This document shows positions 289 to 5,782 of a stretch of 64,000 nt of DNA, piece after piece. The translations under genes were made by a program, and so were the position numbers. Source of the stretch: Aureispira sp. CCB-QB1 (GTDB taxonomy: Bacteria > Bacteroidota > Bacteroidia > Chitinophagales > Saprospiraceae); assembly GCF_000724545.1 (NCBI RefSeq), contig NZ_JHBV01000032.1, forward strand, positions 1 to 64,000, given 5' to 3'. Below the pieces are notes generated by a model. That model made no database searches. It was not told where the DNA came from and saw only the letters and a list, made by a program, of their open reading frames with translations. Positions within the stretch are counted from its first letter, which is position 1. Every line of letters starts with the position of its first letter.

Positions 289-1458
289 CTAATCCAATAC
301 AAGGTCTTTTTTAACTTCGGTTGTTCGCAAAATATGCTCTCCTCCCTTTCCAAATTGATAATTGACATACAGCATTGCTGCCAACAATAATAATCCTCCA
401 GCTTGATGCAATACCCCTAATAATAGAGGAATTTGTCCAATTCCATTCAATAAGGTCAAAATTCCTAAAGTAATCTGTGCGATTAGAATAAAAAGGAGTA
501 ATTGGCTGCCCCTAGCAAGTTGAGGAGATTGGTGTATACGACGAACATACAAATAAAAAATAGGAATTAAAATACACAATAAATAAGCTGTTCCTCGATG
601 CAACAATTGGATGAGCGCAGCAGCAAAACCAGCCCCTTCTTTTGAGTTATAAGCTCGCATATTTTCCCAAGTCCATTTAGAATAATCCTTTAGTACATCG
701 GCTATCCATACCCACGAACCGTCTGTAGAACTTACCTCCATGTGAGGAAAATGATTAAAAACTAATCCCGCTTTGATACCTGCCATCAAACCTCCTAATA
801 CAATTTGAAGACAGATAATAATGGTAATACGCCAAGCAAAGGTTCTTAAACGTTTGTTGTGTTCATCTGTAGCAACAGGCTGCACAACATGCAATGCTAC
901 CCACCACAAATAACCAAAAACAATCGTTGCTAAACTCAAATGAATTGTCAATTTGTACCCATTTACCCAAGCAAACTCTGGCGTATCAAGCCCTGATTTG
1001 ACCATAATCCACCCAAAAACGGCCACTAACATTGTCAACGCAACAACTTTTCCCAACATTACCATCAAAGGCTTGGATAACATCTTTCGCCTCCAAAAAA
1101 TCAAAAACGGAATTAAAAAAACAAATCCCATAGTACGAGCCCACAACCGATGGAAATATTCCCAAAAGTAAATAAACTTAAAATCATTCATAGGAATTCC
1201 ATCAGGATACATTGCTCCAGACCATTTCATCTTCACCTGCCCTATAGCGTGTTCCATATACTCTTGTCGAGCAACTTCCCATTGTTCGGCATTCAAAGGT
1301 GGGATTGTTCCTTGAATTACGGCCCATTCTGTAATCGATAGCCCAGAATCTGTTAGTCTAGTTATTCCACCAATAACAACTTGACAAAAAACCATTACAA
1401 CTCCTATCAGTAACCAAATTTTTACAGCGTTCGAAAACGTTTTTGTTTCTTTTGCCAT
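289..1458 (-). CDS. ctaA: Heme A synthase (COX15/CtaA family)
   Basis: Integral membrane enzyme that oxidises the C8 methyl of heme O to the formyl group of heme A for aa3-type cytochrome oxidases. The 389-residue protein has about eight hydrophobic segments and the four histidines expected of the family: H103 (context EYFHRLWAR), H173 (TIHLSLAT), H287 (LLHRGTAY) and H351 (LHQAGG), which serve heme binding in the two four-helix halves. The N-terminal stretch GGITRLTDSGLSITEW is typical of COX15. The start ATG is the only sensible one, with a short cytoplasmic tail before the first membrane segment. It stands alone: the other side is the DnaA-box region, so it is not in an operon with oxidase genes here. 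A possible -7 promoter element (TAAATTTG, minus strand) lies at 1593-1600. Family assignment is secure. Confidence 0.95.
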   Translation of the reverse strand: MAKETKTFSNAVKIWLLIGVVMVFCQVVIGGITRLTDSGLSITEWAVIQGTIPPLNAEQWEVARQEYMEHAIGQVKMKWSGAMYPDGIPMNDFKFIYFWEYFHRLWARTMGFVFLIPFLIFWRRKMLSKPLMVMLGKVVALTMLVAVFGWIMVKSGLDTPEFAWVNGYKLTIHLSLATIVFGYLWWVALHVVQPVATDEHNKRLRTFAWRITIIICLQIVLGGLMAGIKAGLVFNHFPHMEVSSTDGSWVWIADVLKDYSKWTWENMRAYNSKEGAGFAAALIQLLHRGTAYLLCILIPIFYLYVRRIHQSPQLARGSQLLLFILIAQITLGILTLLNGIGQIPLLLGVLHQAGGLLLLAAMLYVNYQFGKGGEHILRTTEVKKDLVLD

Positions 1459-1809: not shown

Positions 1810-2605
1810 TAGGAGCGTGGATAAGTGGATAAGTCGTTTTAGAAAATATTTTTTTTGCTGTTAAATGACTATTAACAATAAAAAAGAAGTTATCCACTAT
1901 AGTTATCCACATATAAGTATGCTTTTAGTCAGTATTTTATCTTTTTATGCACAGATATCCACATTTTTGTGGATAAAACACTCAAAATATAGATTTTTTT
2001 ATTTGGCTGTTGATTACTGTGGATATTGATGTGAATAATTGTACATTAATCCACAAAATGTACGATAAAAATAGATTTTTATAGACAATAGAGGAAGCCT
2101 TGTGGATGAACTGTGGATAAACCCTATACTTATCCACAGTTATAGACAAATAAACTGTGGATATCTTTGGTTTTAAATCGTTATTTTTTAGCTATTTATA
2201 TATATTTACATAAATAATGTTGATAACTGCCTAATAACAATTTGTTTTTCTGTAAAAACACAAAAAAATGTAGAAGTAATACTATTATTTTTGATAGAGG
2301 AATATCTTTTTAAAGGTGTTGATACTTTTATGGATGGATTTATGCACACTGTGAATAAGGTGTGGATAACTTGTGGATTATGTGTGCGTAACTTACCTAG
2401 GTAGTAAAAAATTACTTTTTTTTAACCCTTTTTTGCGTTTTTGAGGTTGATTTGTAATCAAAAAAGTTAGCATAGAGTGAGAAATTTAAAAAATGAGTTA
2501 ATTATCCACGTTACTTTTGTGCATAACTAAATAAATTGTGGATAAGCTAAAATGGCTAACAAAAAAAAAGTATAAAATTAATAGGAAAAATTGTGGATAA
2601 TCAAT
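1810..2605. other. oriC: Candidate chromosomal replication origin (DnaA-box cluster)
   Basis: Non-coding, very AT-rich block containing seven exact copies of the DnaA box TTATCCACA or its complement, at 1903-1911 (+), 1968-1976 (-), 2112-2120 (-), 2130-2138 (+), 2361-2369 (-), 2537-2545 (-) and 2592-2600 (-). One- or two-mismatch boxes occur at 1816-1824, 1824-1832, 1890-1898, 1955-1963, 2018-2026, 2030-2038, 2047-2055, 2101-2109, 2156-2164, 2218-2226, 2350-2358, 2372-2380 and 2502-2510. An AT-only stretch around 2170-2220 could be the unwinding element. Bacteroidota origins need not adjoin dnaA, and no dnaA is in this window. A short open frame through this block (1661-1912) has no coding character. 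Function as an origin is inference from box density. Confidence 0.8.
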
Positions 2606-2758: not shown

Positions 2759-3427
2759 ATGCCCACTCGTTTCTCCTTCTCTGCTTCAAAAGAAAAAATG
2801 AAGCGTCAGTTTAATTTAGATATAAAAAAAGAATTGCAACAGAGTTTTAATATTGGAGCAACTCAAAATGCTTACTTGTTGACCAATCAATCTCTAGATT
2901 TACAGATATTTAGTTGGGGGTTGATTCCTCATTGGGCTAAAGACAAAAGTGTGGGAACAAATTTGATTAATGCACAAGTAGAGGGAATTGCCAGTAAATT
3001 ATCTTTTCGTTTGCCAATTCGCCAGAGACGCTGCCTAATTTTTGCTGATAGTTATTATGAGTGGACAAAAGAGGGGAGAGCTACTCAACCCTATCGAGTA
3101 CAATTAAGCAATGGAGATTTGATGACTTTTGCAGGAGTTTGGGATGTATGGGTAGATGGTAACCAAGAATTACACAAGACTTTTTCTATTATAACAACAC
3201 CTGCCAATAACTCACTAAAAGAACTGGGCATATCTAGAATGCCAGCGTTGATAACAACAGGAACTGATCGTGCTAAATGGTTGGGAGAACACTCGCTTCC
3301 TAACGCACTTAATATACTTCAACCTTTAGAAAACCTTTCTTTGGATATTTATCCTATTGCTAAAGAAGTTGATTCTTTGGATAATAACTATCCAGAACTT
3401 CACAAGCCTATAGAACTGAGCTCTTAG
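2759..3427 (+). CDS. SRAP (YedK/HMCES) family protein lacking catalytic Cys2
   Basis: Family members protect abasic sites in single-stranded DNA by a covalent thiazolidine link through Cys2, exposed after Met removal. The fold signatures are here: FSWGLIPHW, LINAQVEG with Asn71 (YedK Asn75), YYEW with Glu101 (YedK Glu105), and SRMPALI near the end. However the N-terminus reads MPTRFSFS where the family has MCGRF, so Cys2 is Pro, and the histidine of the usual HDRMP motif is Ile158 in GISRMP. I chose ATG 2759 because it aligns with the family N-terminus; an in-frame ATG at 2750 would add MIL. An out-of-frame ATGTGC at 2734 precedes the gene, so an old frameshift cannot be excluded. Length (222 aa) is normal. 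Either a degenerate paralogue or an altered chemistry; the gene sits directly beside the putative origin. Confidence 0.85.
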   Translation: MPTRFSFSASKEKMKRQFNLDIKKELQQSFNIGATQNAYLLTNQSLDLQIFSWGLIPHWAKDKSVGTNLINAQVEGIASKLSFRLPIRQRRCLIFADSYYEWTKEGRATQPYRVQLSNGDLMTFAGVWDVWVDGNQELHKTFSIITTPANNSLKELGISRMPALITTGTDRAKWLGEHSLPNALNILQPLENLSLDIYPIAKEVDSLDNNYPELHKPIELSS

Positions 3428-3917: not shown

Positions 3918-4766
3918 ATGGCTGATATTCAATCACTAGAACGTATGGCTACACAAGTACGTCGCGATATTATTCGTATGGTACATGCTTGTCAAAGTGG
4001 TCACCCTGGAGGGTCTTTAGGATGTGCTGACTTTTTTACAGCATTATATCAAGAAGTAATGGATCACAATCCCTCTTTTAACATGGAAGGCAAAGGAGAA
4101 GATGTCTTTTATTTATCTAATGGGCACATTTCACCTGTTTGGTATAGCGTGTTGGCTAGATCTGGATATTTTCCAGTAGAGGAGCTAGCAACCTTTCGAA
4201 ATCTAGATTCTCGTTTGCAAGGTCACCCCGCAACACACGAAGGACTTCCTGGTATACGTGTAGCCTCAGGTTCTTTAGGACAAGGATTATCAGTTGCTTT
4301 AGGAACTGCTTTGGCAAAAAAGCTAGATGGTGACAATAAGTTAGTTTATGTGTTGACAGGAGATGGAGAACTACAAGAGGGACAAATCTGGGAAGCAATG
4401 TTGTTTGCAACGCACCAAAAAATAGACAATGTCATTGTTACTGTAGATTGGAATGGGCAGCAAATTGATGGTGCGAATGATGATGTACTTAGTTTAGGAG
4501 ACTTGGAAGCCAAATGGTTATCATTTGGTTGGGAAGTGGTGCACATGGATGGTAACAACATGGAAGAAGTTGTCAAAGGCTTTGATGCCGCAAAAGCAAA
4601 AACTGGTCAAGGGAAACCTGTTGTTATTTTAATGAAAACAGACATGGGGCATGGTGTTGATTTTATGTCAGGAACTCACAAGTGGCATGGTAAAGCACCT
4701 AACGATGAGCAAAAAGATATTGCGTTAGCTCAACTAGAAGAAACTCTAGGAGATTATCCTCTGTAA
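3918..4766 (+). CDS. Transketolase, N-terminal (thiamine diphosphate-binding) subunit
   Basis: Half of a split transketolase, which moves two-carbon ketol units between sugar phosphates in the non-oxidative pentose phosphate pathway. The 282-residue subunit carries HPGGSLG, GHPATH, the ThDP/Mg-binding motif starting at GDGELQEGQIWEA and the following Asn in VDWNGQQIDG, plus KTDMGHGVDFM. It corresponds to the PP domain alone and ends where the single-chain enzyme continues into the Pyr domain. The C-terminal subunit follows after 50 bp on the same strand, so the two are certainly co-transcribed and form one enzyme. Split transketolases are common in Bacteroidota, archaea and some Firmicutes. 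A long leader with palindromic elements precedes it. Confidence 0.93.
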   Translation: MADIQSLERMATQVRRDIIRMVHACQSGHPGGSLGCADFFTALYQEVMDHNPSFNMEGKGEDVFYLSNGHISPVWYSVLARSGYFPVEELATFRNLDSRLQGHPATHEGLPGIRVASGSLGQGLSVALGTALAKKLDGDNKLVYVLTGDGELQEGQIWEAMLFATHQKIDNVIVTVDWNGQQIDGANDDVLSLGDLEAKWLSFGWEVVHMDGNNMEEVVKGFDAAKAKTGQGKPVVILMKTDMGHGVDFMSGTHKWHGKAPNDEQKDIALAQLEETLGDYPL

Positions 4767-4816
4767 GTTTCAATTGCTTTAACTAGTTATTACTTCTAAA
4801 CTTAAAATTAAAAACA

Positions 4817-5782
4817 ATGCTTAAAGATATTATAAGTACAGGCAAGAAAGCAACTAGAGATGGCTTTGGTGATGGTTTGTACGAAGCTGGTCAAAAAAAT
4901 CCTAATGTAGTGGCGCTTTGTGCAGATTTAGTAGGGTCACTCAAAATGAATAAATTTATTGATGAGAACCCTGAGCGTTTCTTCCAAATGGGGATTTCAG
5001 AAGCCAATATGATGGGCGTTGCTGCTGGTTTGGCAACAGGTGGAAAAATTCCTTACACAGGTACATTTGCCAATTTCTCAACGGCTCGTGTTTTTGACCA
5101 AGTGCGCCAGTCAATTGCTTATTCTGATAAAAATGTAAAAATTTGTGCTTCTCATGCTGGACTAACGTTGGGAGAGGATGGTGCTACTCATCAGACCTTG
5201 GAAGATGTGGGAATGATGAAAATGTTGCCTGGTATGACTGTCATTAATCCTTGCGATTATCACCAAACCAAAGCAGCAACCGTAGCAATTGCTGAGCATC
5301 ATGGTCCTGTTTATCTTCGTTTTGGGCGCCCAAGTTGGCCTATGTTTACAGAAAATATGCCTTTTGAAATAGGAAAGGCGTTGACATTAAATGAAGGGAC
5401 AGACGTTACTATTTTTGCAACAGGGCATTTGGTGTGGAAGGCTGTGGAAGCTGCCAAACAACTAGAGGAAGAAGGTATTAGTTGTGAACTGATTAATATT
5501 CATACGATCAAGCCTTTGGATCAAGATGCTGTCCTAAAATCAGCAGCGAAAACAAAATGTGTCGTTGTTGCTGAAGAACACAATATTATAGGTGGATTAG
5601 GAGAAAGTGTTGCTCGTGTATTGGCGCAAAAACAACCAACGTTGATGGAGTTTGTCGCAGTAAATGACACCTTTGGAGAAAGTGGAAAGGTACCTGATTT
5701 GATTGCTAAGTATGGATTGGATACGGTTGATGTTGTTAAAGCCGTTAAAAAAGTACTAGAAAGAAAAGCTGAAAATGCGTAG
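4817..5782 (+). CDS. Transketolase, C-terminal subunit
   Basis: Second half of the split transketolase (321 aa), containing the pyrimidine-binding and C-terminal domains. GISEANMMGVAAGLA carries the catalytic glutamate that activates the thiamine aminopyrimidine ring. CASHAGLTLGEDGATHQ and LRFGRPSWP are typical of this subunit, and the C-terminal Rossmann-like part is seen in EGISCELINIHTIKPLD. It lies 50 bp downstream of the N-terminal subunit with no terminator between them. A nested hairpin terminator follows at 5838-5921. Substrate specificity could be that of a transketolase-like or a DXS-like enzyme, but the split organisation and length favour transketolase. Confidence 0.92.
   Translation: MLKDIISTGKKATRDGFGDGLYEAGQKNPNVVALCADLVGSLKMNKFIDENPERFFQMGISEANMMGVAAGLATGGKIPYTGTFANFSTARVFDQVRQSIAYSDKNVKICASHAGLTLGEDGATHQTLEDVGMMKMLPGMTVINPCDYHQTKAATVAIAEHHGPVYLRFGRPSWPMFTENMPFEIGKALTLNEGTDVTIFATGHLVWKAVEAAKQLEEEGISCELINIHTIKPLDQDAVLKSAAKTKCVVVAEEHNIIGGLGESVARVLAQKQPTLMEFVAVNDTFGESGKVPDLIAKYGLDTVDVVKAVKKVLERKAENA

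Follow-up and report, generated by a model that had tools for sequence, protein, structure and literature searches.

The window, by which we mean the whole 64-kb stretch of DNA that was analysed, encodes an SRAP-domain protein in which the catalytic Cys2 has been replaced by proline, and the best explanation for it, to which we would give a probability of about 0.7, is a selectively maintained ortholog with the SRAP fold that no longer cross-links to abasic sites and has retained a non-covalent role. The protein is homologous to the SRAP family, shares its gene order with relatives, has lost much of its active site, is under purifying selection and has an intact predicted fold, and from this we infer the order of the losses, the absence of cross-linking and the retention of DNA binding. 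A ctaA-linked SRAP gene in the common ancestor of the window's genus, G106, the genus g79 and G086 would have lost His160 and Arg77 (YedK numbering), a change that should slow the chemistry. The site would then have been disabled differently by lineage: the window's genus exchanged Cys2 for Pro, two g79 members exchanged it for Phe or Ile and also Glu105 for Asp, and others exchanged Glu105 for Val or Ile. What selection still maintains would be the fold and probably some non-covalent function, most likely, judging from the family, the binding of single-stranded or abasic DNA at replication forks. The features on which the analysis turned are collected in Table 1.

Table 1. Features of the window around the SRAP gene
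Feature	Position	Strand	Evidence
ctaA/COX15 heme A synthase, conserved divergent neighbour	289..1458	-	PF02628 250.5 bits, synteny
DnaA-box-like sites in the ctaA-SRAP interval, very probable origin (setting of the gene)	1816..2600	.	
SRAP-domain protein, 222 aa, N-terminus MPTRF	2759..3427	+	PF02586 179.4 bits
Pro2 codon CCC, place of the catalytic Cys2	2762..2764	+	
Asn71 (YedK Asn75), kept in the window protein	2969..2971	+	
Gln73, place of the conserved Arg77	2975..2977	+	
Glu101 (YedK Glu105), kept in five Pro2 species	3059..3061	+	
Gly157-Ile158, place of the catalytic His160, one-residue insertion	3227..3232	+	
Two-part transketolase, downstream	3918..5782	+	PF00456, PF02779, PF02780, synteny

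The Pro2 gene and its start codon

The reading frame, its sequence and its extent proved to be as the original prediction had described them, as did the proline in place of Cys2, the retained Asn71 and Glu101 and the missing active-site His. The product of the ATG at 2759 matches the SRAP family over its whole length (E 8.8e-53, profile positions 1-213 of 214 in Pfam, with a score far above the cut-off of 27.1 bits). Of the residues that mark a canonical cross-linker, Asn75 and Glu105 are present, and Cys2 and His160 are absent; the one-residue insertion makes the pairing at position 160 ambiguous between Ile158 and Gly157, neither of which is a His. Further changes are Gly3 to Thr, Arg77 to Gln73 and Pro40 to Ala34. 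Across the six Pro2 rows the codon for residue 2 is CCC or CCT, and the position of YedK Asn75 is occupied by Thr in G003 and G002, two of the five Pro2 species.

A wrong start, or a frameshift hiding a normal Cys2 start, had been named at the outset as a way in which Pro2 might be illusory, the suspicion falling on an out-of-frame ATGTGC at 2734. That frame reaches a stop after 26 codons, its product is not an SRAP protein, and the motif reads ATGCGC in G001. The TTG at 2750, three codons 5' of the ATG and taken as the start by the ORF lister, reads TAG in G001, and the open frame begins two (G001) and one (G002) codons ahead of the ATG. In addition, the Pro2 start is identical in six genomes, including the second genome of the window's species, which is a 2-contig assembly. 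An alternative start or frameshift is refuted by the short ATGTGC frame, the TAG and ATGCGC of G001 and the conservation across six genomes, and is vanishingly improbable; judged by these comparisons, the ATG at 2759 is sound as the start. Chance or assembly error as the source of Pro2 is ruled out, because Pro2 occurs in six of the nine genomes of the genus that were searched, and these are all six in which the gene was found.

A clade of SRAP proteins with altered active sites

A family-wide search matched 344 of 398 genomes, of which the best 30 loci were read and relatives with other broken sites added, and in an active-site table of 112 SRAPs, YedK included, 90 have Cys2, Asn75, Glu105 and His160. 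The window protein falls within a well-supported clade of 14 SRAPs that comprises the window's genus (six rows), G106 (assigned by genome search to a different genus), the genus g79 (including G317 and G340) and G086. Support for the clade was SH-aLRT 99 in a tree from which five of the 112 rows were left out, and 97/96 (bootstrap/SH-aLRT) when the active-site columns were removed from 54 chosen rows. The neighbouring genes tell of the same relationships: a tree of ctaA and transketolase from 18 genomes (12 of the 14 clade genomes, G005, G007 and four from outside, several rows being ctaA only) holds the clade genomes together at 100/100 and the window's genus at 92/93.

His160, Arg77 and Gly3 are replaced in all 14 members, the replacement of Arg77 being the mild one to Lys in four of them. 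Eight members have no Cys2: the six rows of the window's genus carry Pro, G317 has Phe and G340 has Ile, whereas G106, G086 and four members of g79 keep the Cys. Glu105 is retained by the Pro2 rows and by G086; in the other seven the residue is Ile (G106), Val (four of g79) or Asp (G317 and G340). Sister lineages damaged the site by other routes, and Pro2 looks like one of the results of its release from cross-linking. G086, with both Cys2 and Glu, may still be an active cross-linker, because the published H160A mutant was slowed at least 10-fold and yet was not dead (PMC9436759).

The SRAP gene is divergent from ctaA in all 12 clade contexts read and in the canonical genomes G028 and G129, though not in the canonical G101, G010 and G144, and transketolase neighbours are common to several clade genomes. 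The shared divergent order suggests that it was most likely the ancestral gene that changed, rather than an extra copy, and that the clade SRAP was thus probably altered in place. The SRAP tree alone does not group the Pro2 rows. Repeated changes from Cys to Pro were nevertheless rejected, as a single Pro2 clade was not itself rejected (p-AU 0.17) and the neighbour-gene tree unites the genus, so that one such change at the base of the genus would be the simplest history.

Distribution, selection and predicted fold

The nearest named relatives, at 88% and 66% identity, are Aureispira MAGs, and by these the window's genus is Aureispira. Conservation of Pro2 was a check that the original prediction had called for, and the residue is not peculiar to one strain: it was found in the window genome, one conspecific genome and four other species of the genus. 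The idea that a second, canonical SRAP backs up the Pro2 protein was rejected: the search of the window genome (7.37 Mb, 99.2% complete) turned up no further SRAP, and the same held for 13 of the 14 clade genomes, of which G340 is only 63% complete. The exception, G004, carries an additional MCF-type SRAP that is truncated by the end of a contig. In the remaining genomes of the genus, the only SRAP of G005 is of the MCF type, and the genome search found none in G007 or G006; G006 is 88% complete and has no ctaA match either, so its lack of an SRAP says little. A phage or plasmid source for the gene was considered and rejected, as the best tblastn place in each of 46 phage and 1729 plasmid records was less than 60% identical.

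Plain decay, in which the gene would be functionless in the genus and drifting towards loss, was the simpler alternative offered in the original prediction. Several catalytic residues are indeed gone, the SRAP gene has been deleted from the interval between ctaA and transketolase in G007, and it is missing from the ctaA locus in G005, so that any function must be dispensable in some species. However, the Pro2 genes are full length and have no stops, and dN/dS in the three pairs of distinct Pro2 species is low (window/G001 0.062, window/G003 0.107 and G001/G003 0.110). Over 11 clade pairs dN/dS ranged from 0.027 to 0.134 by the method of Nei and Gojobori, values that are approximate, with dS above 1 in several pairs and not computable for many Pro2 pairs. 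Six g79 pairs gave 0.027-0.098 and G317/G340 gave 0.119; the highest value, 0.134, belongs to the near-identical pair window/G060 and rests on three differences. In G007 (L311, about 3948-5492), the site of the deletion is an AT-rich gap of ~1.5 kb that contains DnaA-like boxes and no clear trace of an SRAP gene.

The pattern of conservation also speaks against decay. In 31 canonical relatives, 67 columns are conserved to at least 90%, and 20 of these (the start Met included) are kept in all 11 distinct clade members. The catalytic columns fared differently, Cys2 being kept in four of the 11, Asn75 in five, Glu105 in six, and His160, Arg77 and Gly3 in none. A permutation on the four catalytic columns gave p 0.013 (63 columns, without the start Met and three indel columns, from hand-copied counts); the catalytic columns were thus lost more than other conserved columns, which places the loss mainly in the active site.

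The predicted fold is intact: an AlphaFold2 model of the window protein from a 48-row alignment had a mean pLDDT of 96.1 and a pTM of 0.92. At E <=0.001, Foldseek returned 21 matches, all of them YedK, HMCES or SRAP structures listed in PMC3765255, which identifies the fold as that of SRAP. The best were 2f20, 6oov, 6nua and 8d2m, with TM-scores on the query of 0.84 to HMCES (6oov), 0.82 to YedK cross-linked to abasic DNA (6nua) and 0.82 to the Schiff-base complex of YedK C2A (8d2m). Plain decay is therefore strongly disfavoured: what stood of the degeneration first proposed is the dismantling of the active site, and what did not is the degeneration of the gene, which is under purifying selection, or of its predicted fold.

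Active-site chemistry

SRAP proteins normally attach themselves covalently to damaged single-stranded DNA through Cys2. This residue has been described as absolutely conserved (PMC3765255) and invariant (PMC9436759), and no description of Cys-less SRAPs was found in what could be consulted of open-licence papers. The consequences of its removal are documented for YedK in PMC9436759. An SRAP protein without the Cys2 thiol does not form the stable cross-link, and lyase products appear; YedK C2A forms a borohydride-trappable imine via its N-terminal amine and cuts DNA, with Glu105 essential for the imine (PMC9436759). Imine formation proceeded at 1.7 in C2A, 0.2 in C2A/E105Q and 1.8 in C2A/H160Q, the corresponding lyase values being 0.05, 0.002 and 0.02, and N75A slowed cross-linking only modestly (PMC9436759). 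When Cys2 was blocked, H160Q and E105Q proteins showed no strand cleavage in the same paper.

The window protein resembles E. coli YedK and HMCES in its Pfam family, matched over the whole length, in its fold and in its active-site Asn and Glu, and differs from them in having no Cys2, His160, Arg77, Gly3 or Pro40. It is closer in some respects to the mutants YedK C2A and C2A/H160Q, with which it shares a thiol-free N-terminal amine and a Glu and, with the latter, a replaced His, but its amine is the secondary amine of Pro2, it has no Arg77, and its state is natural and conserved. With no Cys2 thiol, the Pro2 proteins should be incapable of making the thiazolidine and would keep an amine and a Glu for a possible imine. 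A Met that precedes Pro is removed from the N-terminus, and the DNA glycosylases Fpg and Nei use an N-terminal proline, at residue 2, as their lyase nucleophile.

It was this likeness to Fpg and Nei, a Pro at residue 2, that had led to the suggestion of a different covalent or lyase chemistry on abasic sites. Once Met1 had been removed, Pro2 would be a working nucleophile and Glu101 the acid-base, and the iminium formed would lead either to a reversible hold or to beta-elimination. The protein would then be a natural counterpart of YedK C2A, an abasic-site lyase or reversible trap derived from a cross-linker through loss of its thiol and His, and would have converged on the chemistry of Fpg and Nei in an unrelated fold. 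Such chemistry remains conceivable, in view of the imine and the DNA cutting of YedK C2A, the requirement for Glu105 and the imine formation and residual lyase activity of C2A/H160Q (all from PMC9436759), and we consider it unlikely. Pro2 and Glu105, the minimal set for an imine, are both kept in all five Pro2 species while residues 160, 75 and 77 vary, which counts against our preferred explanation; among the Cys-less lineages met here that have a known start, moreover, only the Pro2 lineage combines a residue 2 from which Met is removable with an acid at 105. However, 96 of 222 columns are invariant over the five Pro2 species, so that the retention of these two residues is unremarkable and weak evidence.

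Several further observations tell against the lyase. It was not adopted as the leading reading because Pro2 is nested in a clade in which Arg77 and His160 are replaced throughout, and the loss of these two residues is common to relatives that have no Pro2. The lack of cleavage by Cys2-blocked H160Q or E105Q (PMC9436759) speaks against a lyase that has no His, as is the case for the Pro2 proteins. A lyase acting at forks would, in addition, break strands. The window protein is also of another family than Fpg and Nei, SRAP being its sole match in the Pfam scan, and neither the Fpg/Nei families nor the associated H2TH profile matched it. No H2TH domain of the Fpg/Nei type was found in the window genome, as might be expected if Pro2 had taken over the role of a missing Fpg/Nei enzyme, but neither was one found in the canonical-SRAP relatives G028, G010, G101 and G129. 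In all, H2TH was missing from 14 of the 16 genomes searched, canonical-SRAP ones included, and the idea of such a substitution was dropped for want of a link.

Gene neighbourhood and a probable replication origin

The interval between ctaA and the SRAP gene contains 23 sites that differ at no more than one position from TTATCCACA, which we take to be the DnaA box sequence, and seven of these are exact and are the only exact ones in the window. In the conspecific chromosome, GC skew over 20 sampled stretches is negative from the start of the record to 358 kb (five stretches), positive from 380 kb to 3.6 Mb (nine) and negative again from 4.2 Mb on (six), and changes sign at the ctaA-SRAP interval. 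The cluster together with the sign change indicates that 1816-2600 is very probably the chromosome's replication origin, with the SRAP gene beside it. In a g79 chromosome, the skew is negative in 10 of 10 stretches on the left, and on the right it is positive in seven of 10 and slightly negative in three. At least four exact boxes lie between ctaA and the SRAP gene in G003, G002, G106, G244, G087, G340 and the canonical G028; there are fewer in G004, G317, G129, G023 and G226, and none in G086. Just 5' of the SRAP start, at 2640-2760 of the window, is an inverted repeat whose fold, set against shuffled sequences, had a z of -2.55, with 2 of 200 shuffles as good.

Rewritten SRAPs elsewhere in Bacteroidota

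With the clade profile, a phylum-wide search found matches of E <=1e-20 in 122 of 296 genomes, and the best loci were read. Leaving out three of 287 frames for a late frame start and merging proteins whose first 190 letters were alike gave a table of 231 distinct SRAPs, of which 217 have Cys2 and at least 204 are canonical, a lower bound because the quick alignment misplaces the His of L064-L066, which are canonical in the 112-SRAP table. The truncated or fragmentary G004b, L074, L111 and L140 were kept out of the count of Cys-less SRAPs, and the 12 genomes of a follow-up were chosen mostly for unusual matches of their own or of their kin, so that this follow-up is not a frequency survey.

Two further Cys-less types emerged. 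The MSDRF/MSDRY type occurs in six genomes of the genus g270 (L358, L359, L360, L362, L363 and L364) and has Ser2, no Asn75 or Arg77, Lys105 in six of six and, at residue 160, Asp in four and Gly in two; three of these six genomes yielded no other SRAP. The pairing of a Lys with an Asp is reminiscent of the lyases of the HhH type, and for the MSDRF proteins this would be a matter of resemblance only. The MIERY/MVERF type, of the family f28 (L356, L357 and L361, in G653, G782 and G746), has Ile or Val at residue 2, keeps Asn75 and has Ala105 and Thr160; no other SRAP was found in G653 or G782. The SRAPs of the close relatives G867 and G679 have the canonical residues at 2, 75, 105 and 160. For these types dN/dS was 0.023 in G653/G782 (at a dS of 3.3), 0.066 in G750/G684b and 0.055 in G750/G846b, three other pairs being saturated. 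No exact DnaA box was present near the MSDRF and MIERY genes in any of the eight contexts read, for which reason a link to oriC was rejected for these lineages, and Pfam searches of seven neighbours yielded no functional lead.

In G023 and G226, degenerate ctaA-linked copies (L061 and L139) that keep Cys2 and have Cys or Ser at 105 and Val or Asn at 160 occur in addition to canonical second SRAPs, and their loss of the site appears to be separate. The SRAPs of g270, f28 and G023/G226 are like that of the window in being full-length with replaced catalytic residues, but the replacements and the places in the tree differ, the four rewritten groups sitting apart in a 61-row tree of a chosen subset, where the position of the long MSDRF branch is uncertain. 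A single origin was rejected both for the 14 clade rows with the G023/G226 copies (p-AU 0.008) and for 11 clade rows with the MSDRF and MIERY types together (p-AU 7e-48), values that are rough, as the groups were named after the trees were seen and two groupings were tested.

Bacteroidota lineages have thus kept SRAPs at full length, and under purifying selection, despite the loss of Cys2 or of most of the catalytic residues. In 13 of the 14 clade genomes, and also in G750, G868, G880, G653 and G782, a rewritten protein was the sole SRAP found. Some SRAP proteins, then, probably perform a function for which the cross-link is not required. If this is true, the family includes members with a selected function apart from the covalent capture of abasic sites, the Cys-less SRAPs would serve as natural separation-of-function tools, and the Pro2/Glu version would be a natural protein for the question of imine versus thiazolidine.

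The viral SRAPs met here were canonical where complete: from 107 loci read, 80 of them viral, came 97 distinct proteins (one truncated viral frame was left out), of which 96 are canonical, the lone non-canonical one being the copy in G023. The same genome contains, at G023:C5:79006-79485, two weak SRAP pieces in a single frame of 170 aa, which is perhaps a further copy that has decayed.
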